DNA of 50,659 nt from a virus. Shown here piece after piece: positions 3,782-40,813 of the stretch. The notes under the pieces are model-generated. The model was not told where the DNA came from. It saw only the letters and a list, made by a program, of their open reading frames with translations, and searched no databases. Made by a program: the position numbers and the translations under genes. Within the stretch, counting starts at the first letter, position 1. Each line of letters begins with the position of its first letter. The stretch covers positions 1 through 50,659 of the IMG/VR virus record IMGVR_UViG_3300023278_001015; one strand, given 5' to 3'.

Positions 3782-3970
3782 ATGCCCGATCTAATTTGCA
3801 AAGAATGTAAAACAGAGAAATCTGTAAGAAACCTCACTATGAAGTTTAAAAACGGTAGTGTCTACTACCCTGAAGGACAGTGTGAGTGTGGCGAACAAAT
3901 GGAGATTAAAAACCCTAAAGATGGTGTACCTTTGTTGGGTAGAATGAACTCACACGGACAGAGCTTTTGA
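3782..3970 (+). CDS. small zinc-ribbon protein
   Basis: This 62-residue protein has two cysteine knuckles, CKEC near residue 6 and CECG near residue 34, which together form a plausible one-zinc ribbon. It ends with a TGA sharing its last base with the ATG of the large terminase (TGATG). Zinc ribbons commonly bind nucleic acid or proteins. Its coupling to the terminase suggests a packaging accessory role, which is inference. Confidence 0.7.
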   Translation: MPDLICKECKTEKSVRNLTMKFKNGSVYYPEGQCECGEQMEIKNPKDGVPLLGRMNSHGQSF

Positions 3971-6084: not shown

Positions 6085-6095
6085 CGACGATTTGT

Positions 6096-6103
6096 TATAT
6101 TTG
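6096..6103 (+). promoter_or_regulatory. Bacteroidota-type minus-7 box before the portal
   Basis: TATATTTG lies 26 bases before the portal ATG at 6130, in the only gap between terminase and portal. It suggests the portal and fibre genes have their own transcription start. Confidence 0.5.
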
Positions 6104-6129
6104 CAGAATATGCATAATGCAAGTAAATT

Positions 6130-8574: not shown

Positions 8575-8575
8575 C

Positions 8576-9022
8576 ATGGCAAGTAAAGTAAACTTAGACG
8601 TAGCTGAAAAGCTTGATATCACCTGTAGAAGAGGAGACACCTTTTCCCTTACCCTTACGTTGAACGACTCTAGCGGAACCGCCTTAGACTTGACTGGATA
8701 TGAGTTTTTAATGGATGTAAAGACTAATCCCGTTCGATCTCGAACAGGAGTTTCTGAGAGAGAGGTGATTGCTTCTAGCAGCCTTTCTTCTTCTGCTTCG
8801 GATGCCAAGGGTTTAAGCGAAGAACAAAAGTCAAAACTAAGTAATGGGTTTGTGTTTAGCAATGGAACTACTTCTGGCGTGGTTACCGTTACATCTTCAG
8901 CGGACACTATGAAGGAGCTTCCTGTTGGTTCTTTTACTTACGATATTCAACAAAAAATTAGCGAAGTGGTAACCACCATATTAAGAGGTTCATTCACTGT
9001 AAACGAAGATATCTCTAGATAA
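8576..9022 (+). CDS. BppU-like fibre adaptor protein
   Basis: This 148-residue beta-rich protein has the signature of N-terminal domains in baseplate-upper (BppU) type proteins: CRRGDTFSLTL near residue 18, LDLTGYEF near residue 37, GVVTVTSS, LPVGSFTYDIQ and a closing GSFTVNEDISR. Such domains attach fibres to the virion. The gene starts one base after the portal stop, and the next gene begins one base after its own stop, so it likely links the large fibre to the tail. Confidence 0.65.
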   Translation: MASKVNLDVAEKLDITCRRGDTFSLTLTLNDSSGTALDLTGYEFLMDVKTNPVRSRTGVSEREVIASSSLSSSASDAKGLSEEQKSKLSNGFVFSNGTTSGVVTVTSSADTMKELPVGSFTYDIQQKISEVVTTILRGSFTVNEDISR

Positions 9023-9023
9023 C

Positions 9024-10873: not shown

Positions 10874-12082
10874 ATGCCAGACATAGCATCACATAACGGA
10901 ATAGACGTGGGAAATATAGCATCAATAAACGGTCAAGACGTCCCAAGCGGGGGCAGTGGAATAACAGCAAACTCTATCGCGAACTCTGGCGTTCAGGATT
11001 TGAGTACAGCATCTATTTTTAATAACCCAGTCGTTACTGATAATTTTGCTATAGGTCCAGCAACTTCTCATACATTTTCTAAAATAGTTATTACCAAAAA
11101 CTACACTCAAGCATTCGCCATCAAGTCTAGCGGACAACTGTGGTATTGGGCAACCGAAGACGACTATTGGAACTCGTCAGTTTTTACAACTGACGGGACG
11201 TGGCGGCAATACGGTTCAGATACTGACTGGACAGATATTACTGCTGGCGATGGGCAATTCGGAGCTGTTAAAGGGGGTGATATGATGTTTATAGGATATG
11301 GCGGGAGTAGGCAAAGAGGAGACGGGAATACCAGTAGCTTAGACGATTGGACCGTTACAAATAGCGCTCTTACGTGGAGTAAGGTAGCTATGGGGTATCG
11401 AATGACCGTAGGTATAACGACAGGTGGACACGCTTACACTACGGGTTATGGCTACGATTACATGACTGGACAGGGTAGCGGATCTACGATTTCAACATTC
11501 ACAAGAGAGAAAAACAACCTAACGAACATAACTCAAGCTGTAGTGGGGAGACGCTGTTCTATTTATTTGAATTCTGACGGAGATGTTTACTTTACAGGAA
11601 ACAACCAGTATAATATGGCTGGCCCAGAAATAACCTCAACAAGCGACGTGAATGGACCAACTTTATCGAGTAGCTCGTCAGATAGAGTTATAAGCGTGCT
11701 GGGCCTCCCCAGTTATTTTGGAACTTGCCATATAGATTCAGATAGCTACCTAAGGCACTGCGGTTTTGGAGCTTATCACATGCGACCAGACGATAGTGAC
11801 ACTGCATCACAGGGCTCTAATTCAATGAGGCGTTTAGATAGCGCGGGAACAGGATGGACTCTCTTCTCTGCGCAAAACTGGGGCGATACAAGCTCCACCG
11901 AACAGTCTTGTATAGGTATACAAAGTGGTGCGTTAAAATTTGGGGGGGAGGGTTCAAAGGCATTTAAATCTGCGCTAGGTCTTGCTGTCGATGATACCTG
12001 GGAAACAATCAAGTCTTCAGGCGTTACCTCAGCTGCCATTAACCCAACAGATACATCCGCTGAACTAATTATTTGGAGCTAA
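10874..12082 (+). CDS. RCC1-like beta-propeller fibre protein
   Basis: This 402-residue protein contains repeated blades of the RCC1 type: DWTDITAGDGQFGAVKGG, ALTWSKVAMGYRMTVGIT, NITQAVVGRRCSIYLNSDG and similar segments spaced about 50-60 residues apart, each followed by a glycine-rich turn (GYGGSRQRGDG). The N-terminal 60 residues are low complexity and could join the protein to the fibre. RCC1 propellers in phages occur as fibre tips, so receptor recognition is the likely role. The ATG of the next gene overlaps its stop (TAATG). Confidence 0.65.
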   Translation: MPDIASHNGIDVGNIASINGQDVPSGGSGITANSIANSGVQDLSTASIFNNPVVTDNFAIGPATSHTFSKIVITKNYTQAFAIKSSGQLWYWATEDDYWNSSVFTTDGTWRQYGSDTDWTDITAGDGQFGAVKGGDMMFIGYGGSRQRGDGNTSSLDDWTVTNSALTWSKVAMGYRMTVGITTGGHAYTTGYGYDYMTGQGSGSTISTFTREKNNLTNITQAVVGRRCSIYLNSDGDVYFTGNNQYNMAGPEITSTSDVNGPTLSSSSSDRVISVLGLPSYFGTCHIDSDSYLRHCGFGAYHMRPDDSDTASQGSNSMRRLDSAGTGWTLFSAQNWGDTSSTEQSCIGIQSGALKFGGEGSKAFKSALGLAVDDTWETIKSSGVTSAAINPTDTSAELIIWS

Positions 12083-20290: not shown

Positions 20291-21117
20291 TGGCGCAAAA
20301 TAAAGTAAAGCTCAGTCAAATAATTAGAGACTTCATCATAACCCTTGATGGAGACGACTACGCAAGTAACGCTTCAGATAGCGCCATAAGAAACTTTGCG
20401 TTAAGGGGTATTAGAGAGATTGGATTTGATTTTGGGAAAAAGATTAAGTCGTTAAAGCTGTCGATACAGTCTAACGACACGGTTCCTCTCCCAGAGGATT
20501 TTGTAGATCTGTTGAAGGTTGGGGTTGTTGACGACGACGGAATTGTAAGGGTTTTTGGAAACAACAAAAACATAAACTACTCTAGAAAACTTTCTAGCGA
20601 TCCCGTTGGTAGCGATTTTGAGAATAGCCCTCTGAACATTAGCTCTAACATAATATTCAACAGAGAAGACGACAAAACAGCCACTGGAACCTCAACTGGA
20701 TCAGACAATGATTTCGGTCAGTATGTATTCGAGAACTATATCTATCAAGGCGGTGCAGGAAGACTGTACGGTGCTGGGGGTGGTCATTTAGCTGGTGAGT
20801 ATAGACTCAACTTAGATCAAGACAGAATCGAAGTCGAGACAAATAGTGGTTACTCTGAGGTTGTTATAGAGTACGTTGCTGACGAAGCTCGTGCTGGCGA
20901 CCCAGAGGTTCATGTGTACGCAGAGGAGGCGTTGAGGTCGTATATGTACTACAAGATTATAGAGCGTAAATCATCCGTCCCATCAAACGAGAAGTCTAGG
21001 GCTAGAGCAGAGTACTATAACGAAAGAAGAAAGGCTAACGCCAGATTGAGCAACTTCACTAAGGAAGAGGCGTTGAAGACGATTCGTAAGAACTTTATGC
21101 AAGCACCTAAGTACTGA
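20290..21117 (+). CDS. head-tail connector candidate
   Basis: This 275-residue protein resembles conserved podovirus proteins encoded just before the nozzle. It has an N-terminal helix bundle (SAIRNFALRGIREIGFDFGK), a LPEDFVDLLKVGVVDDDG segment, and a C-terminal helical region (EALRSYMYYKIIERKS, RARAEYYNERRKANARLS). Similar proteins in crAss-like phages form tail-collar rings. It overlaps both neighbours by single bases. Confidence 0.6.
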   Translation: MAQNKVKLSQIIRDFIITLDGDDYASNASDSAIRNFALRGIREIGFDFGKKIKSLKLSIQSNDTVPLPEDFVDLLKVGVVDDDGIVRVFGNNKNINYSRKLSSDPVGSDFENSPLNISSNIIFNREDDKTATGTSTGSDNDFGQYVFENYIYQGGAGRLYGAGGGHLAGEYRLNLDQDRIEVETNSGYSEVVIEYVADEARAGDPEVHVYAEEALRSYMYYKIIERKSSVPSNEKSRARAEYYNERRKANARLSNFTKEEALKTIRKNFMQAPKY

Positions 21118-24100
21118 TGCCGATAGATAAATTGACCCCAAGACAACTAGACTCCGACGCTGATAACAAAACTATCAGTAAGGTTTCTATGCTTGATGCC
21201 TTGAATTTGTACTCAGGGCCAGACAACGACAGCTTAACCGTTTTAGATGGTAAGCTAACTAAGTCGGATGCAGGTAACGGAATACTTAAGAACATCAAGG
21301 GTAATGAAAAGGTAGAGGGAGCGCTTCCTGATGGCACGAGAGTTATAGGCGGTGTTGAAGACAAGAAGACTCGTATAACATACATATTTGTTTATCACCC
21401 AAACGCCAGCATGCAAGGTGTTTTTGCTTATGACAGCGAAGGTTTGTTGCCTGAATCTAATGGACCAACCTTAAGAAAAATATACACAAGCTCTCAGTTC
21501 AACTTTCCTCAAAACGGTTTTGTAAAAGCAGATATTGTTTATAGTTCCGCTGTTAGAACATTTAAAAACTTAGGTGAGGACTTCGAGAAAGATGCTATCA
21601 TTTACTTTACCGACGGGGTAAACGAGCCTAGAAAGATAAACGCATATAGGGCCTTTGAGGTTGGTAACTCTATACACGGTAGCGATGAGTTTGCGGAGGC
21701 TGACTTTATCACGGCGTGTCCTAAGACTCAATTGAAGCCTATAACATTTAAATTTGACTCTGACCCTGATGCAGCTACAGAAGATAGGAGGTCTGTAAAC
21801 AACTTCGAAAGATCTCCTGGCTTTCAATTTGCTTATCAGCATGTCTATATTGATGGTATGGAGAGTGCTATATCGTCTTATTCTGACTTAGCGGTTCTCC
21901 CCTCTGTCGTTGATCAAGGCTCTCAAAGTTACGTAGAGCACCTCAACTATAGATGTCTTTTGACGATACCTGGGGCTGGTCCAGAGATAAAAGAAATAAG
22001 AATACTTGGGAAGCAAGGGAATACAGGCTCTTTTTTAATTATTGATGAAATAGAATCATCTGAAGAACCCCAAGAATACGCTTTCTTTAATGACAGGGTT
22101 TTAAAGGGAGTTAGCACCGATGAGGTAAACAAACAGTTTGATTCATTGCCTAGAAACGCTAAATCTCAATCTGTTACCTCTAACAGGCTTATGTATGGAA
22201 ACTATTTAGACGGCTTTGATAAATCTAACACTACAGCTATAGCAACCGTAAGGTATTTAGACAGGCCCGAAGATTTTATTAAGTTTGACATAGAAGACAT
22301 ACCCTCTATAGATCTTGGTTTTCCAGGAAATTCAGGCGACCCTGTAACTGGTGAGTCAGCAGGTTTTTTTCTTGACTATTCTGGCCTCCCTAACTTTATG
22401 CCAGCGGGCACCCAGGTAAATGTTAATTTTTCTTTTAAACCTCAAAAGAATTTTCACTACTACAGGGCTGGATCAGCAGGACAAACAAGGCAAAGAGGTC
22501 CACAGCCTTCCTCTACAGATGACGAAATATTCAGTGAGGTTAATTTTCAACAAAGTTACGCTGCCACTTCAGAGCAAAACGGATCTGAAAACTTTGGTTC
22601 TGAAAACGGTGTAAGCTCCACAGCGGACGACGCAGCCAATGGTTTAATATGGGGGCTGCCTTTAGATCAAATATTTGACGGATCTGCAAACAATTCAGGC
22701 GCTGGAATCTCTAATAGCTGGCAACGAAAAGACAATCCTCTGGTAAACGGAGTTATCCCAGATAATTTTTCTTTTCCGCCTGAAGTAACAGATGCTACAT
22801 TCGGAACCTCTGCTGCCGCTCCTTTTATATTTGAAGGTCAGCCAATTAGTTTTTCCGCTTCTTTTAAGTTTACTGTGGATGTTACAAACGCTCAAGATCT
22901 TATTAAACAAACAGTTGAGGCTTGCTTTACTGAAAGCAGTCCATTATCCCCTGTTGGTGTAGAGATTTTGTCTGGTAACAATGAGTCATCATACGATATA
23001 GACCTAGGGCTTTTTAGTGGTAGTGTAATAACACAAAATTATGTTGGTCAGGACGGCGGATATGACGTTAACTGCTCTAGGATAGTTGCTGTTGCAAACA
23101 AGGGAGGGACGACTGAATCTGGAGTGCCTTGCGGTTTCTTTATAGTAAATAAGGCAACTCCTACTTTTAGGTTACAAAAAAACACAAACACAGGTCAATC
23201 AGGAGTTGACTATCCCGACAACGAGGCCAGATCTCACTTTACCTTTAGGCTTACAGGGTTTGATTGCAGCCCATACTCTGACGTGCTTACCTGTATTCAC
23301 GACACGGCTGAAACGGGCTTAGGGAATAACTCTAAAAACGAATGGGTGTGTATATCAGCGCCAGATTTAGACGCCCTGTTTAATAACTCATATGGTGGAT
23401 CAGGAATATTTGATTGGATTGCTAACACGCTAGGACAGAACGTGGCTGACAGCTTTCACGGATTTGCTAATCACCCCATTACTGGCATTAATTCAGTCAG
23501 TATAACTAACTCCACACTGGGGTATGGCCAGCAAATAGGAAGGATATCGACAAGCCCAGGGCAACCATTTATACAAACGTCTATTGTAACTCCTGGAGGC
23601 ATTGGGATTGGCCTTGGGGGTGGTGGAGGTCAATTCATTGCGTCTCCTCACTCACTAATGGATGGGGAAGGGGGGCCTGGAGGCGGGCCAGCCAGATCTC
23701 CTGCTAGCGATCACCCTTATGACGCCCTAAGGATGAATAAACAAGGATCTGTAACGGTAAATCCTTTTGTTATTCCTGGACCGTCACTTATTCATCTTTA
23801 CCGTAACACTGTTTTTTATAGTGGTTATATTTCTCCTCTTCCTCAATCTGAGGTTAGTGGTAACTTTAAAGAAGTCACCATACTACCTTTTTTAAAAAAC
23901 ACAAGCACTAGCGATTCAGCTACGTTCGAATATCAAGTGCCAGAGGGTGACGAAGAATTCGGAGCTCTAAATGCTGATAGCGTAAACTTTAAGAGAAATC
24001 AAAGCATACTTGAGCAACAAACCCTAAGCCCCGTTACGATACTAAATAATGAGGGTCTAGGTTTTGGAAGAGAATCTTTCAAGACAGAAGCTAATCATGA

Positions 24101-26861
24101 TTTTGGTATTGTTTACTATGACGAGCGCGGCAGGCACGGCTTTGTAGATCATTTAGCTACAGCGTTTGTAGAGGGCTATACGATTACCGAAAGGGGAGGG
24201 GACAACACGGGGGCTGTGGACATACAGCTTGATCTTCAAGGGACTCCGCCTGAATGGGCTCATACTTACAAGATCGTTTATGCAAAAAACAGTAGCGTTC
24301 AGGACTTTATCCAGTACTCAGTTGGTGGCGCTTTTGTTGGCGGAGACCCTAACGACGATGAGGTTACCGAAGCCAACAAGAACATATACGTCTCTCTAAA
24401 CTATCTGCAAGGACATCCAGTTTCTTACGTTAGTTCATTTGGAGCCAGAACACCTGAGGGTGGCTTAAACTTCTATAAATTTGAGCGCGGTGATAAATTA
24501 AAAGTTATTTCTCATGGACCCCCAGAGGGAAGGGTTTTTCATAGCTATGAATTTGATGTTGTTGATTTGGTTGACTTAGGTCTTGGTGACGAAAACCCCC
24601 TCTCCAACGATCCTTCGTCAAATCAAGTTGGTCAATTTGTAGTTCTAAAGGATAGCCCTAACGCTGAAGGTTTTAACCATAACAGCGTTGCTTTTGGGAG
24701 CGATAGCGGTGGCAACAAATGGAACGAAAACTGCATCGTAGAGCTTAGAACCCCTAAAAAAGTTTTAGGTTTAGACGAGCAGATATATTACGAGGCTAGC
24801 CCTAGCTATAAGGTTGTAAAAGAATCGTCTGGCGAGCTATCTCACTCAGAAGAAACCGTATTAATAACTAAAGGGGATGTTTGGTTTAGAAGGGTTGCGA
24901 CAAACGTAAAGCCTTTTCAAAACGGGGAGTTTATTGATATCATACCTGATGACGATGGGGCGGATCCTTCTCCTCAGCCTAATTTTACTACGATATATAT
25001 GGAGACGCCTTCGTTCAGCGATTTGTTTAGGTCGGACTCTTTGTCTATAGGCAGGCCAAACGTAATATTTGAAGACGCTTCGGAAACGATAAGAGAAAAC
25101 ACTATCACGTATTCAGACCCTAGTAACCCAGAGTCTACTAAGGTAAGATACTCATCCTTCAATTCTTCTCTGGCTAATTTTAAGGACCTCTCAGAGACTT
25201 TTGGGGGCATACAGTATATGGGTGACCACGGAGACTTTGTTGTCGTTATACAGCGAGATAACGTGTCTCTAGTCCCTGTAGGCAAAAACATTTTATCTGA
25301 CGCCTCTGGCAACCAACAGCTTATTGCTTCTAGGAATGTACTCAATGAGGCTGTTGTTTATCCAGGGAGGTCTGGTTGCGACATAGACCCTTCTTCAGTA
25401 TTTGATTCTGGAACCGAGGTTTTCTTTGCAAACAAGAATCTTGGCGAGGTGTACAGGTGGAGCAAAGACGCAGGGCCTCAGGTCATATCTGATATAGGGG
25501 TGTCCTCTGTTCTTAGGGCTATATTTAAAAAGGCTGTTGAGTTAAACCTGACCACAGTATCCCCTAACGAGTCAAGGATAGTTGGTGGGTGGGATCCATT
25601 TAAAAAAGAATACCTACTTAGCGTTGTTGATGTTGAAACTAAATCAACAACTGGCGTTGTATTTGCAGATCAGCCTAACGCTGATACTATAGTTCCAGAC
25701 GTAGATGGTGGTGGCGGGTTAGTTGTCTCTCCAGACCCTATTGAATTTGGGGAAATGGAGGTAAACAAGCGAGAAACAAGTGTTGTAAACATAGTAAACA
25801 ACAACCCTGACCCTATCAACATAACAAGCGTTATATTCAATAACTCAACCTACGGTGTTGATGGTTTATCATTTCCTTTATTGGTGGTGGACGAACTTAA
25901 CCTTACGGTCAGCGCTTTGCCTTTAGAAGAAGGACAGCAAAACGGAACGTTAGAAATAAACACAGATAACCCAGATCAACCTAGAATTACGCTCTCTATA
26001 ACAGGTAGTGCAGAAATTCCAGTCCCAGAAGTAACCTTACTTCCATTTACAATAGCGTACAACGAATACTACAATGAGTCTAAAAAAGACGAAGACATGA
26101 GTACAGAAATAGCAAAGAGATACATGATGGACAGAACTGACGATGCGTCAGACCCAATTACTGGGAATCAGCTCCAAGACTTGTTAGGCACGGGATCAGA
26201 TGGTTATTCCGCCCTAGTAGATGGAACATTGCTTGGTCAAATTAGGTTTGACTATAATTCAAGTGGTTCGGTAGGAGCCCCAGATCTTTTGGAATTCCTT
26301 GCAAAATATGACTCTACATACGATCTCACATCAAGCATTGCAGGGCCTCAGACTCAAGCTAAGTCTAACAAACCTCCTGCACCACCAAAGCCTCAGCCGA
26401 CTACAGAGTTTAAAAGTGTTGACGACGCAATATCTTACCTTATAGCTCAAGGGACTATGACCGTTGGGGAGTACTTGCAGCTAAGAAGCTTCTTGCGTCA
26501 AGACGTTGCATTAAACATGAACCAATCAGGAAATGTTTCTGCTCTTGATCTTATTGAGTTCTTGCAGGTGTTCGGAGCGGTCACGGAAAATAGCGACCCT
26601 GCTTTCTTGCCAAACAATCAGGGAGGGCTTCTTGTTGGAATTACCGCTCAAGAAACAGTAAACTGGTTAATTGATGACGGAACGATGACCATTAGTCAAT
26701 ACTTTAATCTAGCTCAGTACATAAAGCCTGAGTGCAAATCAGACGCCGACCAAAGCAACAGCTTAACTACTTCCGATCTCATCAGTTACTTGCAGGTCTT
26801 TGGAGGTCCTCAGTTTGGTGAAGAAGGGTACGGACCAAATGACATCGCCTTCCAACTTTAA
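21117..26861 (+). CDS. giant nozzle/tail-tube protein with ASH and dockerin-like repeats
   Basis: This 1914-residue protein opens like the nozzle (tail stabilisation) proteins of Bacteroidota podoviruses: KVSMLDALNLYSG and GILKNIKGNEKV near residues 22-66. The beta-rich body runs to VGGWDPFKKEYLLSVV near residue 1488. After that point come modules not expected in a nozzle. There is an ASH-like domain (VVSPDPIEFGEMEVNKRE, about 1536-1635), then three dockerin-like repeats near 1711, 1799 and 1875 (FDYNSSGSVGAPDLLEFL, LNMNQSGNVSALDLIEFLQV, SDADQSNSLTTSDLISYLQV). The segment that usually ends the nozzle is found in the next gene instead. Confidence 0.75.
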   Translation: MPIDKLTPRQLDSDADNKTISKVSMLDALNLYSGPDNDSLTVLDGKLTKSDAGNGILKNIKGNEKVEGALPDGTRVIGGVEDKKTRITYIFVYHPNASMQGVFAYDSEGLLPESNGPTLRKIYTSSQFNFPQNGFVKADIVYSSAVRTFKNLGEDFEKDAIIYFTDGVNEPRKINAYRAFEVGNSIHGSDEFAEADFITACPKTQLKPITFKFDSDPDAATEDRRSVNNFERSPGFQFAYQHVYIDGMESAISSYSDLAVLPSVVDQGSQSYVEHLNYRCLLTIPGAGPEIKEIRILGKQGNTGSFLIIDEIESSEEPQEYAFFNDRVLKGVSTDEVNKQFDSLPRNAKSQSVTSNRLMYGNYLDGFDKSNTTAIATVRYLDRPEDFIKFDIEDIPSIDLGFPGNSGDPVTGESAGFFLDYSGLPNFMPAGTQVNVNFSFKPQKNFHYYRAGSAGQTRQRGPQPSSTDDEIFSEVNFQQSYAATSEQNGSENFGSENGVSSTADDAANGLIWGLPLDQIFDGSANNSGAGISNSWQRKDNPLVNGVIPDNFSFPPEVTDATFGTSAAAPFIFEGQPISFSASFKFTVDVTNAQDLIKQTVEACFTESSPLSPVGVEILSGNNESSYDIDLGLFSGSVITQNYVGQDGGYDVNCSRIVAVANKGGTTESGVPCGFFIVNKATPTFRLQKNTNTGQSGVDYPDNEARSHFTFRLTGFDCSPYSDVLTCIHDTAETGLGNNSKNEWVCISAPDLDALFNNSYGGSGIFDWIANTLGQNVADSFHGFANHPITGINSVSITNSTLGYGQQIGRISTSPGQPFIQTSIVTPGGIGIGLGGGGGQFIASPHSLMDGEGGPGGGPARSPASDHPYDALRMNKQGSVTVNPFVIPGPSLIHLYRNTVFYSGYISPLPQSEVSGNFKEVTILPFLKNTSTSDSATFEYQVPEGDEEFGALNADSVNFKRNQSILEQQTLSPVTILNNEGLGFGRESFKTEANHDFGIVYYDERGRHGFVDHLATAFVEGYTITERGGDNTGAVDIQLDLQGTPPEWAHTYKIVYAKNSSVQDFIQYSVGGAFVGGDPNDDEVTEANKNIYVSLNYLQGHPVSYVSSFGARTPEGGLNFYKFERGDKLKVISHGPPEGRVFHSYEFDVVDLVDLGLGDENPLSNDPSSNQVGQFVVLKDSPNAEGFNHNSVAFGSDSGGNKWNENCIVELRTPKKVLGLDEQIYYEASPSYKVVKESSGELSHSEETVLITKGDVWFRRVATNVKPFQNGEFIDIIPDDDGADPSPQPNFTTIYMETPSFSDLFRSDSLSIGRPNVIFEDASETIRENTITYSDPSNPESTKVRYSSFNSSLANFKDLSETFGGIQYMGDHGDFVVVIQRDNVSLVPVGKNILSDASGNQQLIASRNVLNEAVVYPGRSGCDIDPSSVFDSGTEVFFANKNLGEVYRWSKDAGPQVISDIGVSSVLRAIFKKAVELNLTTVSPNESRIVGGWDPFKKEYLLSVVDVETKSTTGVVFADQPNADTIVPDVDGGGGLVVSPDPIEFGEMEVNKRETSVVNIVNNNPDPINITSVIFNNSTYGVDGLSFPLLVVDELNLTVSALPLEEGQQNGTLEINTDNPDQPRITLSITGSAEIPVPEVTLLPFTIAYNEYYNESKKDEDMSTEIAKRYMMDRTDDASDPITGNQLQDLLGTGSDGYSALVDGTLLGQIRFDYNSSGSVGAPDLLEFLAKYDSTYDLTSSIAGPQTQAKSNKPPAPPKPQPTTEFKSVDDAISYLIAQGTMTVGEYLQLRSFLRQDVALNMNQSGNVSALDLIEFLQVFGAVTENSDPAFLPNNQGGLLVGITAQETVNWLIDDGTMTISQYFNLAQYIKPECKSDADQSNSLTTSDLISYLQVFGGPQFGEEGYGPNDIAFQL

Positions 26862-26866
26862 AATAA

Positions 26867-27883
26867 ATGGCGCAGATAAACATAAACGAAAAAACGTTTG
26901 CTTTCTCTACGAGGTCCGATACCTGGACTTCTAGATACAGCTTTGACCCAACGTGTTATATGACTTCTGGGAATAAAATGCTGTCATCAAAAGATGGCTT
27001 AGGCGTGTGGCTTCACGATCAGCTATCTACTAGGAATAAATTCTACGGTAACGAAGTCGCCAAATCTTCTATTACGGTTTCTGCTAATCAAGACCCTTCT
27101 GCGGTTAAGATGTATAAGTCTCTGTCGCTAGAAACAAACACAAAGGACTGGACGGCAGAGGTTTGCACGAACGTAGAGTACGAGGGTAAAGAAAAACAAA
27201 AAGGAAGTATATCTTCTTTTGAAAAGAAAGAAGGCTTTCAGTACGCTGAGATGCCAAGGGATGTGTTGAACTCAACCAGAAATATAGTTGGAAAGCCATT
27301 TACCGCTTCTAGTCTTATAGAAGAGTATGGCTTTGGGGACGCTGTCACAATTAGCGGCAATTTTACCAGTGAACTATACGAAGGTAATTTTGAAAACTTA
27401 CAAGGCTTTAGTCTTTTCTCCGTAATTGCTGAAGAGGGCTTTATGATGGAAAACTCAACCGCAAGCAGTAAAACATTTGACGTTAGTCTTTATAACGTAA
27501 AAAATGGGTCATTACTAGAATTATTTGACGTTCCTGAGGCGGGTGGCGGAGAGCAATACAATGCCGATCCTCTTGCTCTTTATGTTTTAGGACATAAAGA
27601 ATATGAAGGAGAATTACTCTTACTGTTGGGCTATAAACTTGTCCCCCCCAACGCGGACGACGAAGCTCCAGCTCAGAGCAACATATTTTTTGACGAGGAA
27701 TCTATCTTATACAGCAACCAGCTTGTGCTCGTAGTAAACCCAAAGATTGACGGCGATCAGCTACGAGGTCCTTACATTAACGTAGAAATATCAGCACAAA
27801 CGGATAAGCATGCGGAAATCCACGCAATTAACGTAGATTACGAATTCTCTAAGCTTGACAAGCGTTTAACTCAAAATACTTAA
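26867..27883 (+). CDS. detached C-terminal nozzle domain
   Basis: This 338-residue protein begins with ININEKTFAFSTRSDTWTSR, continuing into YSFDPTCYM, then VWLHDQLSTRNKFYGN and ANQDPSAVKMYKSLSLE. This string of motifs is normally the C-terminal part of one long nozzle protein. Here it is a separate gene starting five bases after the 1914-residue protein. It probably assembles with it in the tail. The TAA stop codon is also the TAA of the next promoter box. Confidence 0.65.
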   Translation: MAQININEKTFAFSTRSDTWTSRYSFDPTCYMTSGNKMLSSKDGLGVWLHDQLSTRNKFYGNEVAKSSITVSANQDPSAVKMYKSLSLETNTKDWTAEVCTNVEYEGKEKQKGSISSFEKKEGFQYAEMPRDVLNSTRNIVGKPFTASSLIEEYGFGDAVTISGNFTSELYEGNFENLQGFSLFSVIAEEGFMMENSTASSKTFDVSLYNVKNGSLLELFDVPEAGGGEQYNADPLALYVLGHKEYEGELLLLLGYKLVPPNADDEAPAQSNIFFDEESILYSNQLVLVVNPKIDGDQLRGPYINVEISAQTDKHAEIHAINVDYEFSKLDKRLTQNT

Positions 27884-31532: not shown

Positions 31533-34500
31533 ATGCCAGAAAAAAACAAGTACTCTCAGTATACTCGCAATATGACTGAGGCGCAGAAGGCGCAGTTTAA
31601 TTACATGGTGAATGCGTTTGAGACCAGGAACCAGCGCTCTTTAGTTTCGGCTAATGCAAAAAGCCCTGATAAAGAATACAGCCTAGGTGATTACAGCCAA
31701 GAGATACAAAACGTATTATCTAACGAGCAGTTTGGAAGAGTTGAAGAAGAGGCTAGGATTGCTGGTATAAACAAAATACTTGAACTAGGCAATGTAGATT
31801 CGGAAAGCTTTTTTAAGGAGAGACCTGAGGCCACAGCTATTGATGCTATGAGAGCGACAAACTACAACCAGTTTGCCGACAAAGAGAAGGTTTACATGGA
31901 GTCTCAAGCTAATAGCAGGGACAAGATGGTCTCGGATCTCAACGAAGAGTACAACCTGACATTTCAAAACTCTTTTAAGTTCCCAGAAATGGGGAGGGGT
32001 CTTAACGAGATACTCCCTGACTTTATAAAGAACGACCCAGAGAAACAACAGCAGTTCGAGACAGCTTTTTACAACGAGACAGGCGGAGCTAAGATAGACT
32101 TCAACGAAAGCGGACAAGTCGGTGACCTTTACACGGATAGCCTTGTGGGTAATGCGGGAAGGCAGGTGGGAAGATGGTTTAATAACGCTATGAATGAAGT
32201 GGCTGACAGCGCTCTAGGAACAGCTAACGCTATATACGATTTGGCTGGAGGAGATCCATCTAAGAAAGATGAGGAGTTTTTAGCCAAGCAAGAGTCAGGG
32301 GAAGTAGAGACTGGATACGAAAGGCTTCAAAGATTTGAAAAAGAAGGAGCTTTAGGCGTTGGGTTTGATGACCCTTTGTTTTGGGCGTCTTTCTCTAGCC
32401 CCGAAGCAAGAAGACAGCTTTACGCTTCACGGCAAGGTCCTCTTCTGGCTTTTGATTTTCAGCAGATGATGGACACGGGTGGAGTTACGGAGGCTACCGC
32501 TGGACAGCTTTTTTCCATTGGCATGGATCAATTGGTTCAGTCTGCCCCATTGCTTTTAGACTTGGCTGGAGGTGCGGCCATAGCCAAGGGGTTGCTCAAA
32601 AGAACCACTAAAGTTATGGCTAAACGCGCTACCGCGAAGGCTGGGAAGAAGTCATTAAGAAAAGAGGGGGAGATACTAGCTAGAAATCCAGAAAGCATGC
32701 GCATGATGTCCAATAAGGCTGCAAAAGCTATGGATGATCGCGTTGACTACATACTTTCTGAATCTGCAAAAGCTCAGAGAAGAATAAACCAAGCAGGGGC
32801 TTTCTTTGTGTCAGACGCTCTTGTTGCTTCTCAGATGCACTCAGACAACGTAGGACAGGACTGGTATGACAACCTTAGTGGAACCGAAAGGTTCACATAC
32901 CTAGGGATTCAAGCTGGAGCTGAAGTGGCTTCTGGTATGGTTTTGGGGAATATATTTGCTAGAGGTTTCGGTCCAGGTAAAATGACGCGAAACATACTAA
33001 CTGCTGAGCGCAGTGCAATAAAAGAGTACGGAAAGAATATAGTTAGATCTACTCTGCTGGGAGCTACCGAGGAGGTGTTTGCAGAGGGTGCTACCGCTGC
33101 GATTCAGTACAGAAACGAAATATCAGCTAGAATAAAAGGAGGGGACGAGTCAGCTTACTTTGACGACGGTGAGTTCAGAAGAAAGGTTCTTGAAGGCGCG
33201 ACAGCTGGCCTGCTTATGGGTGGACTTGCTGGAGGTCTCAGTGGGACAGTAGGGGGCGCTGCAAAGGCAACCCTTGCTACAATGCACAAAACCTCTATTG
33301 ACGCCAAGAAGGAGCAGGCAAAAGCAGCTGAGGCTGTTAATAAGGCAGCCACGCAGACTGCCAAGAAGGATGCTATGAAGCGTCTTGAGATTGCCACTAA
33401 AAAGTTTACGGCTAGTCAGTCGGCTATGGCTAGGGCGTACAACGTAATGGCTCAGGCAGACCCAGAAAGGTTTGATGAGATCGCTAGGACTCAAGGAGCT
33501 ATAAGCGCTCTTGTTCAGCAACACAAGGCATCAAAGGACCCTGAGTTTCAGGAGGCCACATTTCAGGAGATTAAGTCTTTAGTGGAAAAGAAGCAACAGC
33601 TAGAAACAGAAGCGGCTAAATCTGCTGGTGTTGAGGGGTTAGATGAGCTGTACAAGCAGGAATTTGACAAAGTAAACAAGGAGAGGGGGACTAAAGAGAA
33701 GGCTTGGAGGGCAAAGACGGATCCAGATTTAATTGCTCAAAGAGAAGTAGATCGTCAGATGGAAGAACAGCGAGAAGCCTTCGAGGTGGCTCAAGAAGCA
33801 AACTCTCCTGATCAGAATACAGACGACGACGCACAGGACCAGGAGGGTGAGACGCAGGAGGGCTCTGGCATGCAAAGAAATGAAGATGCGCCTATTGAAG
33901 GGGTAGAGGGTGATGCCAACTCCCCCATGAGTCCGACAGCTTTGGAGGGTCAACCCCTTGCCGCTAAGTATAGAGACGTTGTAGGTAGGGTAAACAACCT
34001 TCTCAAGGCTTTTAAGCCTTTGGGTGTCGATGCTGTTGTACATACTACAGAGCAAAGCTTTTTTAACGCTACAGGAGCGACTTCATTGGGTATGTTCAGG
34101 CAGGGTAAAACCGTACACATAAACCTAGAAAAAGCCAACGTAGGAACCAACACGGTTAGGCACGAGTTTCTGCATGCTGCTTTCATGACGCTTACACCTC
34201 AGAAAAAGCAACAGTTCTTAGAAGAGCTAAGGTCAATTAGAGGCATTAACGCTAGGAATATCGAAAGGGCTGTAGAAGAAACTTACTCTGATTACGATTC
34301 TGAGAGTCTAATAGAGGAAAAAATAGTCAACATATTAGAGAGCGCTCTTGATAAGACCCCCTTAGAAGCTAGACAGTCAACAATACAGAGGATTGCAAAC
34401 TTCTTTAGAAGGTTGTTAGGTATAAAAGAACAAATTACCGAAAGCGACCTGCAAGGCTTTGTGCGTCAATTTAGAGCCGCTGAGAGAAGCGGAGTAGAGT

Positions 34501-37500
34501 TCGAGGGGGGTAGAGCATCCCAGGGGGCTGATATGGACGCAAGGGACCTAGGAATGAACCGAGGAGGTTTTAAGTCAACAGCTTACCCAGACTTAGTGCG
34601 AAAGAAAGTCACATATGTTAAAACCTTTCTCAACAAGATAGGTGAAGAATACCAGTTGTATGATGAGGTGTTTGTCAATGATTACTGGCACTTCAGAAAC
34701 TGGTGGATCAAGGAGACTGGAAACGGGAAGAGAGGTAATTACCTAAGCAACTTTGCTTACGTAGGTGAAAATGGAAAAAGCAAAAAAATAAACCCACCAA
34801 GACCTAAAGTAGACAAGTCTACAGGTGAGGTTGTTGACATGGAGCCGAAGCTAAAGACTCCATTTGAGATGAAGCTATCTGCTAATCAGCGGTCTATGGC
34901 AAAACGCGATAGAATAGGAGACAGAGACAGCGCAACAGACTCTTTGATAAGCAGAATGATGGAGGTTGTTGGGCTAAGCATTCCAGCAGCTAGAGAGGCT
35001 AAGTCTGAGTTTTTTATTGATGAAAGCGGAAAAGAAACGGAGGGTAAGTCCGAACTGCCTGTAGTGTTTAGCGACACCATCTTCACGGAAGGGTTGAGAA
35101 ACATGCAGTTTCAAAATGAGTATGGGGATGCCGTCCGTAGCACAATGGACGACTTTGCATTCTTAGTCCCTAAGAATCAATCAGGTGAGTTTGCATACAG
35201 CATCCGAAACAACGGAGATGGATCGGTAACTATAGAGGCTCATTCAAATGTTCTGGTTGCTAACGGCAAGGAGCAAGGAGAGGTTCTTGCCAAAGGGTCT
35301 GTAAAACCGTCAGAGGGGTTAGAGGCGAGGGAGTTAAAAATATCCCAATCAAACACCCTGGGTAAAGAAGAAAACAGAGGCGACATATTAAGAGATACTG
35401 CTGGTAAAATGGCGGCATCCTTAGGGTTTGATAAGACTGGAGATTATTCTGGCGTAAGAGACCTAATAAATAGAGGCGGAGAAATTATAACCTCTCATAT
35501 CGATAGAACAAAAGCAAGAATAGTTAGAGATCAGCTAGTTAAAATGGCCGTAGAAGAAGCCGAAAGACTGGGACTTAAAGAAGGTGAGATTGGAGAGATT
35601 GTTATATTTCATACTCTCCTGGAAAAAGAATCGTCTTTAGGCAATCCTTATGTGTTTGAAGAGGTAATGAAAAAGTTCTCAAGCGCTAAGGAGATAGAAA
35701 AATCTTTTAGAAAAAACACCAATGACGCAATTGCATTTAGAAACGCCCTTGAGGGTGTGCTAGATGGTGATTCAGAACTTGATCAGTTATTTGATGCAAT
35801 AGACAAGGGTAAGGAAATACAGGTTGATGACGTCTTAGCAAAAAAAATAACCGATCTTCTTGTTAAAAACTCAAGAGGATTTAATTTTGCAACCAGAACA
35901 ACTATATCAAAAGAAGTAACTGATTCCTCATCTAGAGATTCTATTTATAAAAAATATAATGACGATCTGTGGAAGGACACGGAAATAGGAAGTGTAGTGG
36001 CTTATACTGTTGTTCCTTTCAAATACACACCTTCAGAATCTAGACCAATAAAAGGATTTAGTCTAGCTACAGAGCCAGCCAAATCTAAAAGCCCGTTCAA
36101 GGGTATTATAGCTCCTGAGCAAATATTTGATGGAGCAAATCTAGTTCCTGGTCCAAAAACATTAATACCTACAGACCTCTACCACTTAGCAGAATTACTT
36201 CCAGAAACAGTTACAAAATTAGATAAAAAGGGAGATGAGGTTCAGGTCACTGAAAGGTCATCAGACCTTCCTGTTGATCAGCAAAGAAAAGAACTAAACC
36301 CTAGAGCCGCAATATCAGCGGTAAAGGGAAGGGTTCAGCCAACTAGCTTTTTAGACTTAGACAACTCAACAAGAGATCCAGAATCAAGAGACTTAGGGTT
36401 GAATCTAGACAATCAAACTGAACTTCCGTTTGAGCCTAACAACCTAAACGGATTCCAGGCTTTCATGGCTCGTATGGACCAGTTGTTCGCTAACAAGTAT
36501 GCAAACGTTATGCGTATGCAGAAAACCATCGAAAAAGCCAAGGGTAAGGTAGTCGAGTTAAGTAAGGACTTTATAAATGCCGAGGCTCTTCTTTACGGTA
36601 AGACAGCCAACGATCTTGACAAGCTGGACGGTAAGGTAAAAGACATCTCTCTGGAGATGAAGGACAAGGGCATTAACTCAGAGGACGTATCGGAATACCT
36701 CATCGCAAGACACGCTAAAGAACGTAATGCTGTCATCTCTGAGCGTACAGAAGGTAAAGACGAAGCTGGTAGTGGTATGACCAACGAGAGGGCTGACGAG
36801 ATCATGAACAGCCTTTCGCCCGAAAAGAAAGCTGCTCTTGAGTCAGTAGCTGCTAAGGTTGATGCCATCACAGCCGACACTAGAAAGACTATGGTAGACT
36901 TCGGACTCGAAGAGAAGTCCACAATCGACGCCTTTGAAGCTATGTTCCAAAACTATGTACCTCTTGGAGGTTTGGCTTTGGATGAACAAAACTCAGATAC
37001 CTCACTCTACCCAACAGGCGGAGCAGGCATGAGCGTATACGGAGACACAACGAAGCGAGCCAGAGGCCGTAAGAGCGAAGCACAGAATGTACTCGCACAG
37101 GCTATTGCACAGAACGCAGCCGTACACGCCAAAGCACGTAAGAACGAAGCACTATCATCACTTTACAATCTCGTAAAGGACAACCCTAACCCTAAGGTGT
37201 GGAGACTCGCTAAGGAGGTTCCGTTCGATGCGCAGAGCGCGGTGGGCGTAAGAGTAAACGGTGAGCAACAGTTCATTGTGTTTGCCAATCCAGACATGGC
37301 TAAGTCATTGAAGAACATGGGGGTTGAGAAGCTCGACCTTTTCAGTAAGGCTATGCGTAGGTTCTCTGGTTTCCTAAGACGCTCATTTACAACGGCTAAC
37401 CCTGAATTTATCATCTCCAACTTTGCGAGGGATATCCAGTCAGCGTTGTTTAATGCTATGGCGGAGGCAGACATTCCAGGCGGTCAGATTCCAGGGCGCC

Positions 37501-39059
37501 ATATCGCAGCTAAGGTGATGACCCGTGTGAAGCAAACCCTTCCAGCCCTGCTCAAGAACGCAGTAGGTAAGGACTTGTCTCCAGAAATAGCGGCATACTT
37601 CGAGGAGTTCAAAGAGGACGGCGGTCAGACAGGATGGGGATTTGTAAAAGACGTAAGTACGATTGCGGCTGAGATTGAGTCAGAGATAAACGAGAAAAGC
37701 AAAGCGAAGAAAGCATCCGAATGGATGGCTAAAAACAGCATAGAGGTTATTGAGAACGTAAACGATGCGTTTGAGAACTCTGTTCGTCTTGCAGCATATA
37801 TCGAAGCTAGAAAGGCAGGGATAAGCAGAGAGAAGGCGGCAGAGCTTTCCAAGAATATCACGGTAAACTTCAACAGATCGGGTGAGCTCGGACCAATGGC
37901 TAACGCATGGTACATGTTCTTCAACGCATCTGTACAGGGTACTGTAAGGCTTGCTCGATCACTTGGCACCCTGAAGGATGTGCGTAAGCCTAACGGGGAG
38001 CTTGAGTCCTGGCATAAGCGCCTTAATGGGGCTCAGAAGATGGCCTTTGGATTATCCCTGACTACTGGTATGCTTACTATGATTAACATAGCGATGAGTG
38101 ATGACGACGAGGATGGGGTTTCTTTCTATGAAAAGATTCCAGACTACGAGAAGGAGCGTAACCTGATCATCATGTATAGTGGAAAGAACTACTTCAAGAT
38201 ACCTCTCCCATACGGCTTCAACGTATTTGCAAACATGGGTAGCTCTATGGTGGAGGCCGCTAACGGTCAGAGAGAGCCATTAGATGCTGGTATGTTCTTG
38301 TTGAACTCTGCGTTCAGCTCGTTCTCGCCAATCAGCTTCGGACAATCCAAGGACGCGGCAAAGTACCTAGCTAAGGGTGCATCGCCAACTATACTAAAGC
38401 CATTCGTTGACATAGCCGTGAATGAAACTTATTTCGGTAGCTCTGTATACAGGGAGCAGTTCCCAGTAGGAGCGCCTAAGCCACAGGCTGAGATGTCATA
38501 CCGATCACCTGAGGGGGTTAGAAGTTTCTTTAAGTGGATGAACGAGGCTACAGGTGGAAGTGAGCAGGTTCCAGGATCGGCAGACTTCAACCCAGATAAG
38601 TTCTGGTACGGATTTGAGTACTATATCGGTGGTGCTGGTCAGTTCATTACTCGATCGCTTGGCACAGGTAAAGACCTCTTCGAGACAATCAAAGAGGGAG
38701 AGAAGGTGCCTATGAAGGCAAACGACTTCCCGTTCTTAAGAAAGCTGTATGGTGAGGCGTCAAAGTACTATGACTCAGACACTTACACGGACAATGCTAA
38801 TCTAGTTTCTCAACTATACAAGGAGAGGAAAGAAGCAGAAGACAAGAACGACAAACGGTACAAAGGCGTAATGAAACTTGAGTCTGCTCGCAAGTCAACA
38901 GAGAAGAAGATTAAGAGGCTTCGCAAGCTCCGTAAGGAAGCAAGAGACATCAAGAACTATGTTGAGAAACAGAATAGAATCTATGAACTCTACGAGAAAG
39001 AGCGAAGCCTGTTGATGCAGTTTAACAAGCAATACGAACAGCTACGTGGAAAAGATTAA
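31533..39059 (+). CDS. giant polyvalent internal virion protein with zincin motif
   Basis: This 2508-residue protein is probably ejected into the host with the DNA. Residues about 872-890 contain TVRHEFLHAAFM, an HExxH zinc site (His877, Glu878, His881), with a candidate third ligand in SLIEEKIVNIL downstream. Near residue 1945 lies RRSFTTANPEFIISNFARD, the signature of large polyvalent protein-associated domain 38. Hydrophobic stretches occur near 560-590 and 2165-2190. Long charged helices fill the rest. Such proteins in podoviruses form the capsid core and a trans-envelope channel. The protease activity is inferred from the motif alone. Confidence 0.75.
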   Translation: MPEKNKYSQYTRNMTEAQKAQFNYMVNAFETRNQRSLVSANAKSPDKEYSLGDYSQEIQNVLSNEQFGRVEEEARIAGINKILELGNVDSESFFKERPEATAIDAMRATNYNQFADKEKVYMESQANSRDKMVSDLNEEYNLTFQNSFKFPEMGRGLNEILPDFIKNDPEKQQQFETAFYNETGGAKIDFNESGQVGDLYTDSLVGNAGRQVGRWFNNAMNEVADSALGTANAIYDLAGGDPSKKDEEFLAKQESGEVETGYERLQRFEKEGALGVGFDDPLFWASFSSPEARRQLYASRQGPLLAFDFQQMMDTGGVTEATAGQLFSIGMDQLVQSAPLLLDLAGGAAIAKGLLKRTTKVMAKRATAKAGKKSLRKEGEILARNPESMRMMSNKAAKAMDDRVDYILSESAKAQRRINQAGAFFVSDALVASQMHSDNVGQDWYDNLSGTERFTYLGIQAGAEVASGMVLGNIFARGFGPGKMTRNILTAERSAIKEYGKNIVRSTLLGATEEVFAEGATAAIQYRNEISARIKGGDESAYFDDGEFRRKVLEGATAGLLMGGLAGGLSGTVGGAAKATLATMHKTSIDAKKEQAKAAEAVNKAATQTAKKDAMKRLEIATKKFTASQSAMARAYNVMAQADPERFDEIARTQGAISALVQQHKASKDPEFQEATFQEIKSLVEKKQQLETEAAKSAGVEGLDELYKQEFDKVNKERGTKEKAWRAKTDPDLIAQREVDRQMEEQREAFEVAQEANSPDQNTDDDAQDQEGETQEGSGMQRNEDAPIEGVEGDANSPMSPTALEGQPLAAKYRDVVGRVNNLLKAFKPLGVDAVVHTTEQSFFNATGATSLGMFRQGKTVHINLEKANVGTNTVRHEFLHAAFMTLTPQKKQQFLEELRSIRGINARNIERAVEETYSDYDSESLIEEKIVNILESALDKTPLEARQSTIQRIANFFRRLLGIKEQITESDLQGFVRQFRAAERSGVEFEGGRASQGADMDARDLGMNRGGFKSTAYPDLVRKKVTYVKTFLNKIGEEYQLYDEVFVNDYWHFRNWWIKETGNGKRGNYLSNFAYVGENGKSKKINPPRPKVDKSTGEVVDMEPKLKTPFEMKLSANQRSMAKRDRIGDRDSATDSLISRMMEVVGLSIPAAREAKSEFFIDESGKETEGKSELPVVFSDTIFTEGLRNMQFQNEYGDAVRSTMDDFAFLVPKNQSGEFAYSIRNNGDGSVTIEAHSNVLVANGKEQGEVLAKGSVKPSEGLEARELKISQSNTLGKEENRGDILRDTAGKMAASLGFDKTGDYSGVRDLINRGGEIITSHIDRTKARIVRDQLVKMAVEEAERLGLKEGEIGEIVIFHTLLEKESSLGNPYVFEEVMKKFSSAKEIEKSFRKNTNDAIAFRNALEGVLDGDSELDQLFDAIDKGKEIQVDDVLAKKITDLLVKNSRGFNFATRTTISKEVTDSSSRDSIYKKYNDDLWKDTEIGSVVAYTVVPFKYTPSESRPIKGFSLATEPAKSKSPFKGIIAPEQIFDGANLVPGPKTLIPTDLYHLAELLPETVTKLDKKGDEVQVTERSSDLPVDQQRKELNPRAAISAVKGRVQPTSFLDLDNSTRDPESRDLGLNLDNQTELPFEPNNLNGFQAFMARMDQLFANKYANVMRMQKTIEKAKGKVVELSKDFINAEALLYGKTANDLDKLDGKVKDISLEMKDKGINSEDVSEYLIARHAKERNAVISERTEGKDEAGSGMTNERADEIMNSLSPEKKAALESVAAKVDAITADTRKTMVDFGLEEKSTIDAFEAMFQNYVPLGGLALDEQNSDTSLYPTGGAGMSVYGDTTKRARGRKSEAQNVLAQAIAQNAAVHAKARKNEALSSLYNLVKDNPNPKVWRLAKEVPFDAQSAVGVRVNGEQQFIVFANPDMAKSLKNMGVEKLDLFSKAMRRFSGFLRRSFTTANPEFIISNFARDIQSALFNAMAEADIPGGQIPGRHIAAKVMTRVKQTLPALLKNAVGKDLSPEIAAYFEEFKEDGGQTGWGFVKDVSTIAAEIESEINEKSKAKKASEWMAKNSIEVIENVNDAFENSVRLAAYIEARKAGISREKAAELSKNITVNFNRSGELGPMANAWYMFFNASVQGTVRLARSLGTLKDVRKPNGELESWHKRLNGAQKMAFGLSLTTGMLTMINIAMSDDDEDGVSFYEKIPDYEKERNLIIMYSGKNYFKIPLPYGFNVFANMGSSMVEAANGQREPLDAGMFLLNSAFSSFSPISFGQSKDAAKYLAKGASPTILKPFVDIAVNETYFGSSVYREQFPVGAPKPQAEMSYRSPEGVRSFFKWMNEATGGSEQVPGSADFNPDKFWYGFEYYIGGAGQFITRSLGTGKDLFETIKEGEKVPMKANDFPFLRKLYGEASKYYDSDTYTDNANLVSQLYKERKEAEDKNDKRYKGVMKLESARKSTEKKIKRLRKLRKEARDIKNYVEKQNRIYELYEKERSLLMQFNKQYEQLRGKD

Positions 39060-39474: not shown

Positions 39475-39683
39475 TGCCTGAAAACTTAAGTCATTTTGAA
39501 TTTTTAGCAGTGGCGGGTGCTTTAGTCGGTGGGTGGATAAAATTTCAATCAGACTACAATAGGCTTTCGTCTCGTGTTGCTGTTCTTGAAGCTGATAACT
39601 CAGAGTTTAAAGAGGACATGAAGCAGCTGCTAAGGGAGATTCAAGAAGTAAAACTTCTTTTAGCTAAGAACCAAATGCAATGA
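39474..39683 (+). CDS. small membrane coiled-coil protein (spanin-like)
   Basis: This 69-residue protein has an N-terminal hydrophobic segment (FLAVAGALVGGWIKF) and a coiled-coil tail (VAVLEADNSEFKEDMKQLLR). The topology fits an inner-membrane spanin or a holin partner. Position after the holin supports a lysis role, but no outer-membrane spanin lipoprotein was found. Its stop overlaps the next ATG (ATGA). Confidence 0.6.
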   Translation: MPENLSHFEFLAVAGALVGGWIKFQSDYNRLSSRVAVLEADNSEFKEDMKQLLREIQEVKLLLAKNQMQ

Positions 39684-40813
39684 GGTTATTTCTTCTGACA
39701 CTATGCCTGCTATCACAGTACGTGATTGTAGGGCAGGATTCCTGCGCTGTATTCGGAAACGAGAACATACAGCCCAGGATGATGGGGTACATCCCAGAGC
39801 CTGTTCAGTGGGAGGAGATCGACTACGTATACCACATATACTACACCGACAGTTTTCCAAATAGCTACATACCTGAGGACATCATCATGGATGCTCACGA
39901 TCACTTGAACGAAGAGTTCGATGAAGCTATGCTTACCTTCGATCTTATTGATGTTATATACCACGACTTCGATGAGTTTTGGGGCGCTCCTGTAATCTTG
40001 GAGCAAAATGCTGTATGCGTACCATACAGTTCGAGTGGGTTCCAGTGGATGGATGGGTATGTAGAGGACCTAGTATGGGACAGAGAACAGTACATGAACG
40101 TACATATATTTCCAAGTTTCTGCAACGGGATACTGGGGTTTGCATGGACGGCATACACAACTCAAACAGAACTAGACGGTGTGTGGGTTAGGTCAGATGT
40201 GTTTGGTAACTACGGACCACAGCTTTCTTATGACGATAGAGATCAAAACAAAACCCTAATACACGAAGTAGGTCACTTCGTTAGTCTTCACCATGTGTTT
40301 CGTAACATAGATAACTGCGGTCAGAATCTAGGTGACTGCCTAGAGACAGGCGATTTTGTGTGCGATACACCCCCAACTAAACTAAACTTCAGCTGTGAAA
40401 ACCCTATATGCCCTCCAGCATTGTACGGGTACGAGACTAACAACCACATGGATTACTACCCTGACTCATGTAGGACGTCGTTTACTGAAGGTCAAATAGA
40501 AAGGATTCATGCCGCTCTTCCTATACTCCGACCTGGGCTCACCGATCAGGACCCTTATTGTTTGGGGGACATAAACGGAGACCACGTAGTGGGTATGGTT
40601 GATCTTATGCTCATGCTGGAAAACTGGGAAAATATATACTGGATTCCAGGAGATCTAAATGGTAGTGGATACTTTAACGTGATGGACTTTCAGATACTGC
40701 TAGGTCAATGGGGTACAATATGTTACGGCGCTGAACTTGATCCTTTTTATAGAGAGGAACCACGACCAGTCTTGAAACTAGAAAGGGGCCGAAGCCCCTT
40801 TCCATTCAAGTAA
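39680..40813 (+). CDS. secreted M43-like metalloprotease with dockerin-like repeats
   Basis: This 377-residue protein opens with a signal peptide (MRLFLLTLCLLSQYVIVGQ). Its catalytic domain has HEVGHFVSLHH at 195-205 (zinc ligands His195, His199, His205; Glu196 the base) and a Met-turn, NNHMDYYPDSC, near Met257, as in pappalysin-type M43 enzymes. The usual Gly of HExxHxxGxxH is Ser202. Paired cysteines suggest disulphides outside the cytoplasm. Residues 297-346 carry two dockerin-like calcium loops (GDINGDHVVGMVDLMLML, GDLNGSGYFNVMDFQILL). It is coupled to the holin and spanin genes. Lysis or cleavage of surface proteins is inferred. Confidence 0.75.
   Translation: MRLFLLTLCLLSQYVIVGQDSCAVFGNENIQPRMMGYIPEPVQWEEIDYVYHIYYTDSFPNSYIPEDIIMDAHDHLNEEFDEAMLTFDLIDVIYHDFDEFWGAPVILEQNAVCVPYSSSGFQWMDGYVEDLVWDREQYMNVHIFPSFCNGILGFAWTAYTTQTELDGVWVRSDVFGNYGPQLSYDDRDQNKTLIHEVGHFVSLHHVFRNIDNCGQNLGDCLETGDFVCDTPPTKLNFSCENPICPPALYGYETNNHMDYYPDSCRTSFTEGQIERIHAALPILRPGLTDQDPYCLGDINGDHVVGMVDLMLMLENWENIYWIPGDLNGSGYFNVMDFQILLGQWGTICYGAELDPFYREEPRPVLKLERGRSPFPFK
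40781..40802 (-). terminator. terminator hairpin at strand convergence
   Basis: GAAAGGGGC and GCCCCTTTC form a nine-base-pair stem. Read leftward the loop is TTCG, as in the other terminators here, so it most likely ends the ribonucleotide reductase transcript. It lies inside the last codons of the rightward protease gene and could also act on that transcript. No long T run follows in either direction. Confidence 0.65.

Follow-up and report, generated by a model that had tools for sequence, protein, structure and literature searches.

A nozzle/muzzle protein divided between two genes at a propeller hairpin in crAss-related podoviruses

We analyzed a 50,659-nucleotide stretch of viral DNA (positions 1 to 50,659 of the IMG/VR virus record IMGVR_UViG_3300023278_001015, hereafter the window), which stems from a marine bacterial virus and has a gene set typical of a crAss-related podovirus, including a terminase (3967-6084), a portal (6130-8574), and virion structural proteins. 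Directly 3' of the portal and of a 615-aa protein with a repetitive start lies a gene for a 402-aa RCC1-repeat-like protein (10874-12082, +). Elsewhere, the window encodes a Cpn10/GroES-like protein (2660-3244, +), a 2508-aa protein with an LPD38 large polyvalent domain close to its C-terminus (31533-39059, +), and a protein (857-1672, +) with similarity to the alpha-L-arabinofuranosidase B catalytic domain (E 3e-10 over 84 residues), which is odd for a phage structural neighbourhood. This study concerns two consecutive genes, A and B, for which an earlier note made from the sequence alone had given correct coordinates and lengths. Their features are as follows, A2 being a profile HMM built from an alignment of 15 unsplit relatives:

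21117..26861, + strand: gene A, 1914 aa, N-terminal chain of the split nozzle/muzzle plus a putative C-terminal display module (phrog_14478, A2 profile)
24999..25649, + strand: propeller half of the nozzle as encoded by A before the break, residues 1295-1511 (positions 17-225 of the A2 profile)
25581..25628, + strand: VGGWDPFKKEYLLSVV, A residues 1489-1504, last nozzle strand pair before the break and first strand of the broken hairpin
25629..25718, + strand: linker from the nozzle half to the ASH domain, including DVDGGGG (read from the sequence)
25719..26018, + strand: ASH / HYDIN-type Ig-like domain, A residues 1535-1634 (PF15780, AF2, Foldseek)
26088..26858, + strand: three diverged helical repeats with one EF-hand/dockerin-like Ca loop each (pattern and self-comparison)
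26250-26300, 26514-26564, 26742-26792, + strand: Ca loops in the A repeats (DxNxSGxVxxxDL-type pattern)
26862..26866, + strand: intergenic spacer between A and B, 5 nt
26867..27883, + strand: gene B, 338 aa, C-terminal chain of the split nozzle/muzzle (A2 profile, E 3e-29; phrog_18548)
26894..26944, + strand: TFAFSTRSDTWTSRYSF, the strand pairing across the broken hairpin in unsplit relatives
27029..27262, + strand: crAss_MUZ_C domain in B, residues 55-132 (PF25729)

Gene A matched phrog_14478 (virion structural protein) with an E-value of 1.8e-72 and gene B matched phrog_18548 with an E-value of 1.1e-16; the start of B holds TFAFSTRSDTWTSRYSF, VWLHDQ, and RNKFYG. The A2 profile matched A over model positions 17-225 (E 2.6e-42) and B over positions 220-378 plus 404-451 (E 3e-29). 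Hence, as the earlier note had proposed, the nozzle continuation is missing after VGGWDPFKKEYLLSVV and opens B instead, and the profile alignment it had asked for identifies A and B, by sequence, as complementary halves of one nozzle/muzzle protein without duplication. A complete nozzle C-terminal domain within A would have spoken against such a split, but the Pfam scan placed crAss_MUZ_C (PF25729) in B (E 9.9e-8, 32.8 bits against a cut-off of 27) and not in A. For the crAss_MUZ main body, A showed no direct Pfam match at E 1, so that its muzzle membership runs via the intermediate profile A2, whose unsplit members match PF25731 and carry crAss_MUZ followed by crAss_MUZ_C in a single chain. 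With filters off, A2 also matched residues 1050-1287 of the crAss001 muzzle gp44 at 69.8 bits (E 1.9e-18 among 177,635 sequences), against 7.6 bits for the best-scoring of 200 shuffles; under default filters, gp44 was not matched by A1 or A2 in the PDB profile search. PHROG 18548, listed as "unknown function", is this C-terminal nozzle subunit.

Next, we located the break. The unsplit chain, seen in elemoF gp22, phi38:1 gp97, and numerous relatives from metagenomes, carries the strand VGGxDPxxxEYLLS followed by a short turn and by TxxYSxxxxGWTSxxSFxPE, and the break lies within this single beta-hairpin of the C-terminal propeller half. An AlphaFold model of the unsplit relative L035 was weak overall, its best Foldseek matches being phage nozzles, among them the podovirus nozzles T7 gp12, SU10, GP4, A4, and Pa223. 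The solved podovirus nozzles are known as single chains. In gp44, the break maps to about residue 1199, in VYFTYK/DHCLCYSE. This protein forms a hexameric muzzle whose propeller has seven blades and resembles the T7 nozzle, and its IG2 together with the crass domain spans residues 318-1021 (PMC10172136); the break therefore falls in the propeller half, after IG2. The earlier note was right to place it in the nozzle; more exactly, it lies in a hairpin of the propeller and not in the distal crass domain. Known variation in muzzle length stems from insertion in the crass and IG2 regions, not in the hairpin (PMC10172136). The window proteins share with gp44 (7qok/7qol; PF25731 + PF25729) the C-terminal propeller half, the MUZ_C domain, and the position in the structural block, whereas gp44 is an uninterrupted chain that makes a short turn where the window proteins are broken, and the window departs from the single polypeptide of crAss-type muzzles in having two genes with stops in both frames at the junction. 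The literature searched contained no earlier account of a muzzle or nozzle divided in this way. Among cultured phages, the same hairpin is split in the Pachyviridae phi18:3 (gp114/gp115) and phi13:2 (gp120/gp121), with both halves recorded as virion proteins under the sole designation "structural protein"; for the Cellulophaga phage phi18:3, the annotation of both as virion proteins comes from MS/MS (GenBank note). Their module is Big_9/cadherin-like, as opposed to ASH plus Ca loops in the window, and their split is a separate event according to the tree.

Beyond the break, A runs on for 411 aa by the profile boundary (about 380 residues in the earlier note, which had correctly recognized an insert), comprising the linker, the ASH/HYDIN Ig-like domain, and the three repeats. 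Residues 1535-1634 qualify as an ASH/HYDIN Ig-like domain by both profile and fold. Specifically, PF15780 matched with E-values of 2.1e-4 for the whole protein and 4.6e-5 for the isolated tail, the latter below the curated cut-off, the sister L024 gave a HYDIN Ig match above cut-off, and an AF2 model of the domain (pLDDT mostly 80-89) retrieved HYDIN 2e6j (E 1.2e-6) and CEP192 6fvi (E 4.2e-6) in Foldseek. ASH/HYDIN PapD-like domains, with which this region shares sequence and fold, usually occur in cilia, centrosome, and bacterial surface proteins, while here the domain sits on a phage nozzle. The ASH-like part of the earlier note's description was thus borne out; of its dockerin-like part, the Ca loops hold and a Dockerin_1 match does not. 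The repeats are related by self-comparison (repeat 2 versus 3, E 8e-13; repeat 2 versus 1, E 1e-4), and their three loops carry the DxNxSGxVxxxDL-type Ca-binding motif of type I dockerins, from which they differ in having one loop each, set in helical repeats, with no match to Pfam Dockerin_1 (PF00404) in the window module; EF-hand_6 matched the A tail below cut-off (E 1e-3). For the window tail and for an unsplit relative, AF2 gave models (mean pLDDT 45 and 51) that were poor outside the ASH domain and the strands next to the break. Among the 16 window proteins scanned, the only dockerin-like loop outside A lies in an M43 (pappalysin-like) metallopeptidase (39680-40813, +), which probably has a signal peptide and whose C-terminal dockerin-type pair narrowly misses the Dockerin_1 cut-off (E 4e-4).

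The extension also differs from the rest of A in its divergence. Compared to the nearest relative, L004, A is 98% identical before the break and 74% identical in the extension, with an island of 60-79% identity at about 25750-26500. As read from these identities, the island fits an exchange or fast change of the module, though the genome has other such islands. B, for its part, is under purifying selection (dN/dS 0.23-0.38), and its first 132 residues are 94-96% identical.

To place this locus among its relatives, we used two profiles to classify the loci from six IMG/VR scans and from known phages; 115 distinct loci remained once near-copies had been removed. Unsplit relatives exist (elemoF gp22, phi38:1 gp97, L073, L079, and others): 51 loci were unsplit, 41 of them with a linker of 60 aa or less, and 64 were split, every one at the same hairpin. 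Extra material of at least 519 nt was present at all 64 (median 512 aa-equivalents), i.e., no split without an insert was seen among the distinct split loci, and in 36 of them at least 350 nt separated the two genes. This speaks against the possibility, raised in the earlier note, that B is always a separate protein and the module absent from relatives. In all 26 split representatives tabulated, a possible start codon lay 0-12 residues ahead of the core strand of B. Only the L035 group, near the window clade, was counted as having a clear insertion in frame at the hairpin: L035 carries 135 aa and its sister L188 none, so that insertion without a break is possible. L091, L092, and L096 were rejected as further cases, their insert preceding the GGFD strand. 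Two cases stood apart. A 78-kb contig (IMGVR_UViG_3300030406_003150) holds an unsplit and a split muzzle locus together (L197, L215) and is either chimeric, joining two phages, or derived from one phage that has two tails. In Maribacter phage Panino, the annotated muzzle gene (L013 8551-8725) is broken at an earlier point of the propeller, where open frames overlap, probably because the record contains a frameshift or because a second break occurred naturally.

The inserts themselves ranged from Ig/ASH, cadherin-like (Big_9/cadherin in phi13:2 and L027), and BACON-like domains (L060, L076) to Cys-rich repeats, novel domains, or whole genes; since the first insertion, the inserted material has been exchanged many times. 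One module was a separate gene in MW202828 and part of the extension in L041 (47% identical over 57 aa). In L026, which adjoins the window clade, A and B are separated by three consecutive adhesin-like genes (4367-10001). All three have EF-hand or Dockerin_1 segments, two also show LamG-like lectin matches, and the first two are paralogous over the EF-hand region. By eye, the A extensions of L027 and L032 contain a von Willebrand A-like motif (IYIYFDASGSM) beside a Big_9-type Ig domain, which Pfam did not report as vWA. Overall, the insert domain types (Ig/ASH, Big_9/cadherin, BACON, and LamG plus dockerin) are folds usual in adhesive phage parts, and together with their turnover they suggest display and adhesion.

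The module might instead serve assembly or stabilization, with the Ig domain and Ca-loop repeats locking neighbouring muzzle subunits or docking virion proteins such as fibres or lectins. EF-hand/dockerin-like loops are usually docking elements, and the L026 proteins between A and B would suit such a role, yet the Pfam scan of window proteins returned no cohesin-like partner, and the complete difference of modules between lineages fits display better than a conserved assembly function. We consider an assembly role unlikely, though it deserves to be kept in mind.

We then asked how often the split arose. The split state needs four changes on a 48-row tree and five on a 110-row tree, four of the latter forced by well-supported branches (quick method), although these counts cannot separate gain from loss since the trees are unrooted. 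Constraining all splits to a single clade was rejected (p 9.5e-5), but a common origin of all non-window splits was not (p 0.09); at least two origins are thus firm, and five changes are most parsimonious. The unrooted trees would also accommodate an ancestral two-gene state, with unsplit relatives as secondary fusions and nothing broken by insertion. However, crAss001 gp44, of known structure, is one chain (PMC10172136), unsplit rows occur in every major part of the 110-row tree, and several precise re-fusions would be needed, each also losing the insert, which makes this scenario improbable and the unsplit form the likely ancestor. The earlier note's idea of an insertion that broke one tail gene is accordingly supported, but not as a local event: the break is clade-wide and old, is not peculiar to the window genome, and arose at least twice.

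Two further readings were weighed. A programmed frameshift or read-through could yield an A-B fusion and make the split only apparent, and the open frames do overlap by some bases in 17 of the 64 split loci. In the window, A terminates at a TAA, and another TAA, directly before the ATG of B and in frame with it, rules out a frameshift fusion there; 47 of the 64 split loci have no overlap, up to 5.6 kb of genes intervene, and the phi18:3 halves are recorded as separate MS/MS proteins, so that we regard a fusion as very improbable. An intein was considered and rejected. An assembly error, sequencing frameshift, or decaying gene, conceivable for a single metagenomic contig, can be dismissed almost entirely, given that contigs from independent samples and cultured Pachyviridae share the junction and that both halves are conserved with low dN/dS.

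Taken together, we consider it probable that A and B form a two-chain tail-tip nozzle subunit, in which B completes A non-covalently and the freed end of A displays exchangeable, probably adhesive modules. Specifically, with the chain of one nozzle/muzzle subunit cut inside one beta-hairpin of its C-terminal propeller half, B would begin with the outer strand of that hairpin and supply the remaining propeller and the C-terminal domain; it would therefore have to complete A non-covalently, by strand complementation, aided by adjacent or overlapping genes. The open hairpin would let A continue into the ASH domain and three Ca-loop repeats, and the free end of A would hold this module on the outside of the tail tip, most likely as an adhesin for glycans or the host surface, or as an arm that docks such an adhesin in a Ca-dependent manner. 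The co-operation of the two subunits and the exposure of the module, both anticipated in the earlier note, are in this sense strongly suggested. A bolder version, possible but tentative, is that aquatic Bacteroidota podoviruses possess an open socket, a repeatedly evolved, swappable host-range cassette in which the cut hairpin carries arbitrary adhesin arrays on A and adhesin genes between A and B, some docking back via EF-hand/dockerin-like contacts.

For structural biologists, the two-chain form with its variable module shows where the propeller tolerates a cut, and it explains orphan families such as PHROG 18548. Because related viruses arrived at this break independently on several occasions, it may be a favoured site for displaying host-contact parts. 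In crAss-related phages of aquatic Bacteroidota, the hairpin may thus act as a display platform that recurs and whose modules can be exchanged, and would be a likely location of host-contact parts in phages with few recognised adhesins.
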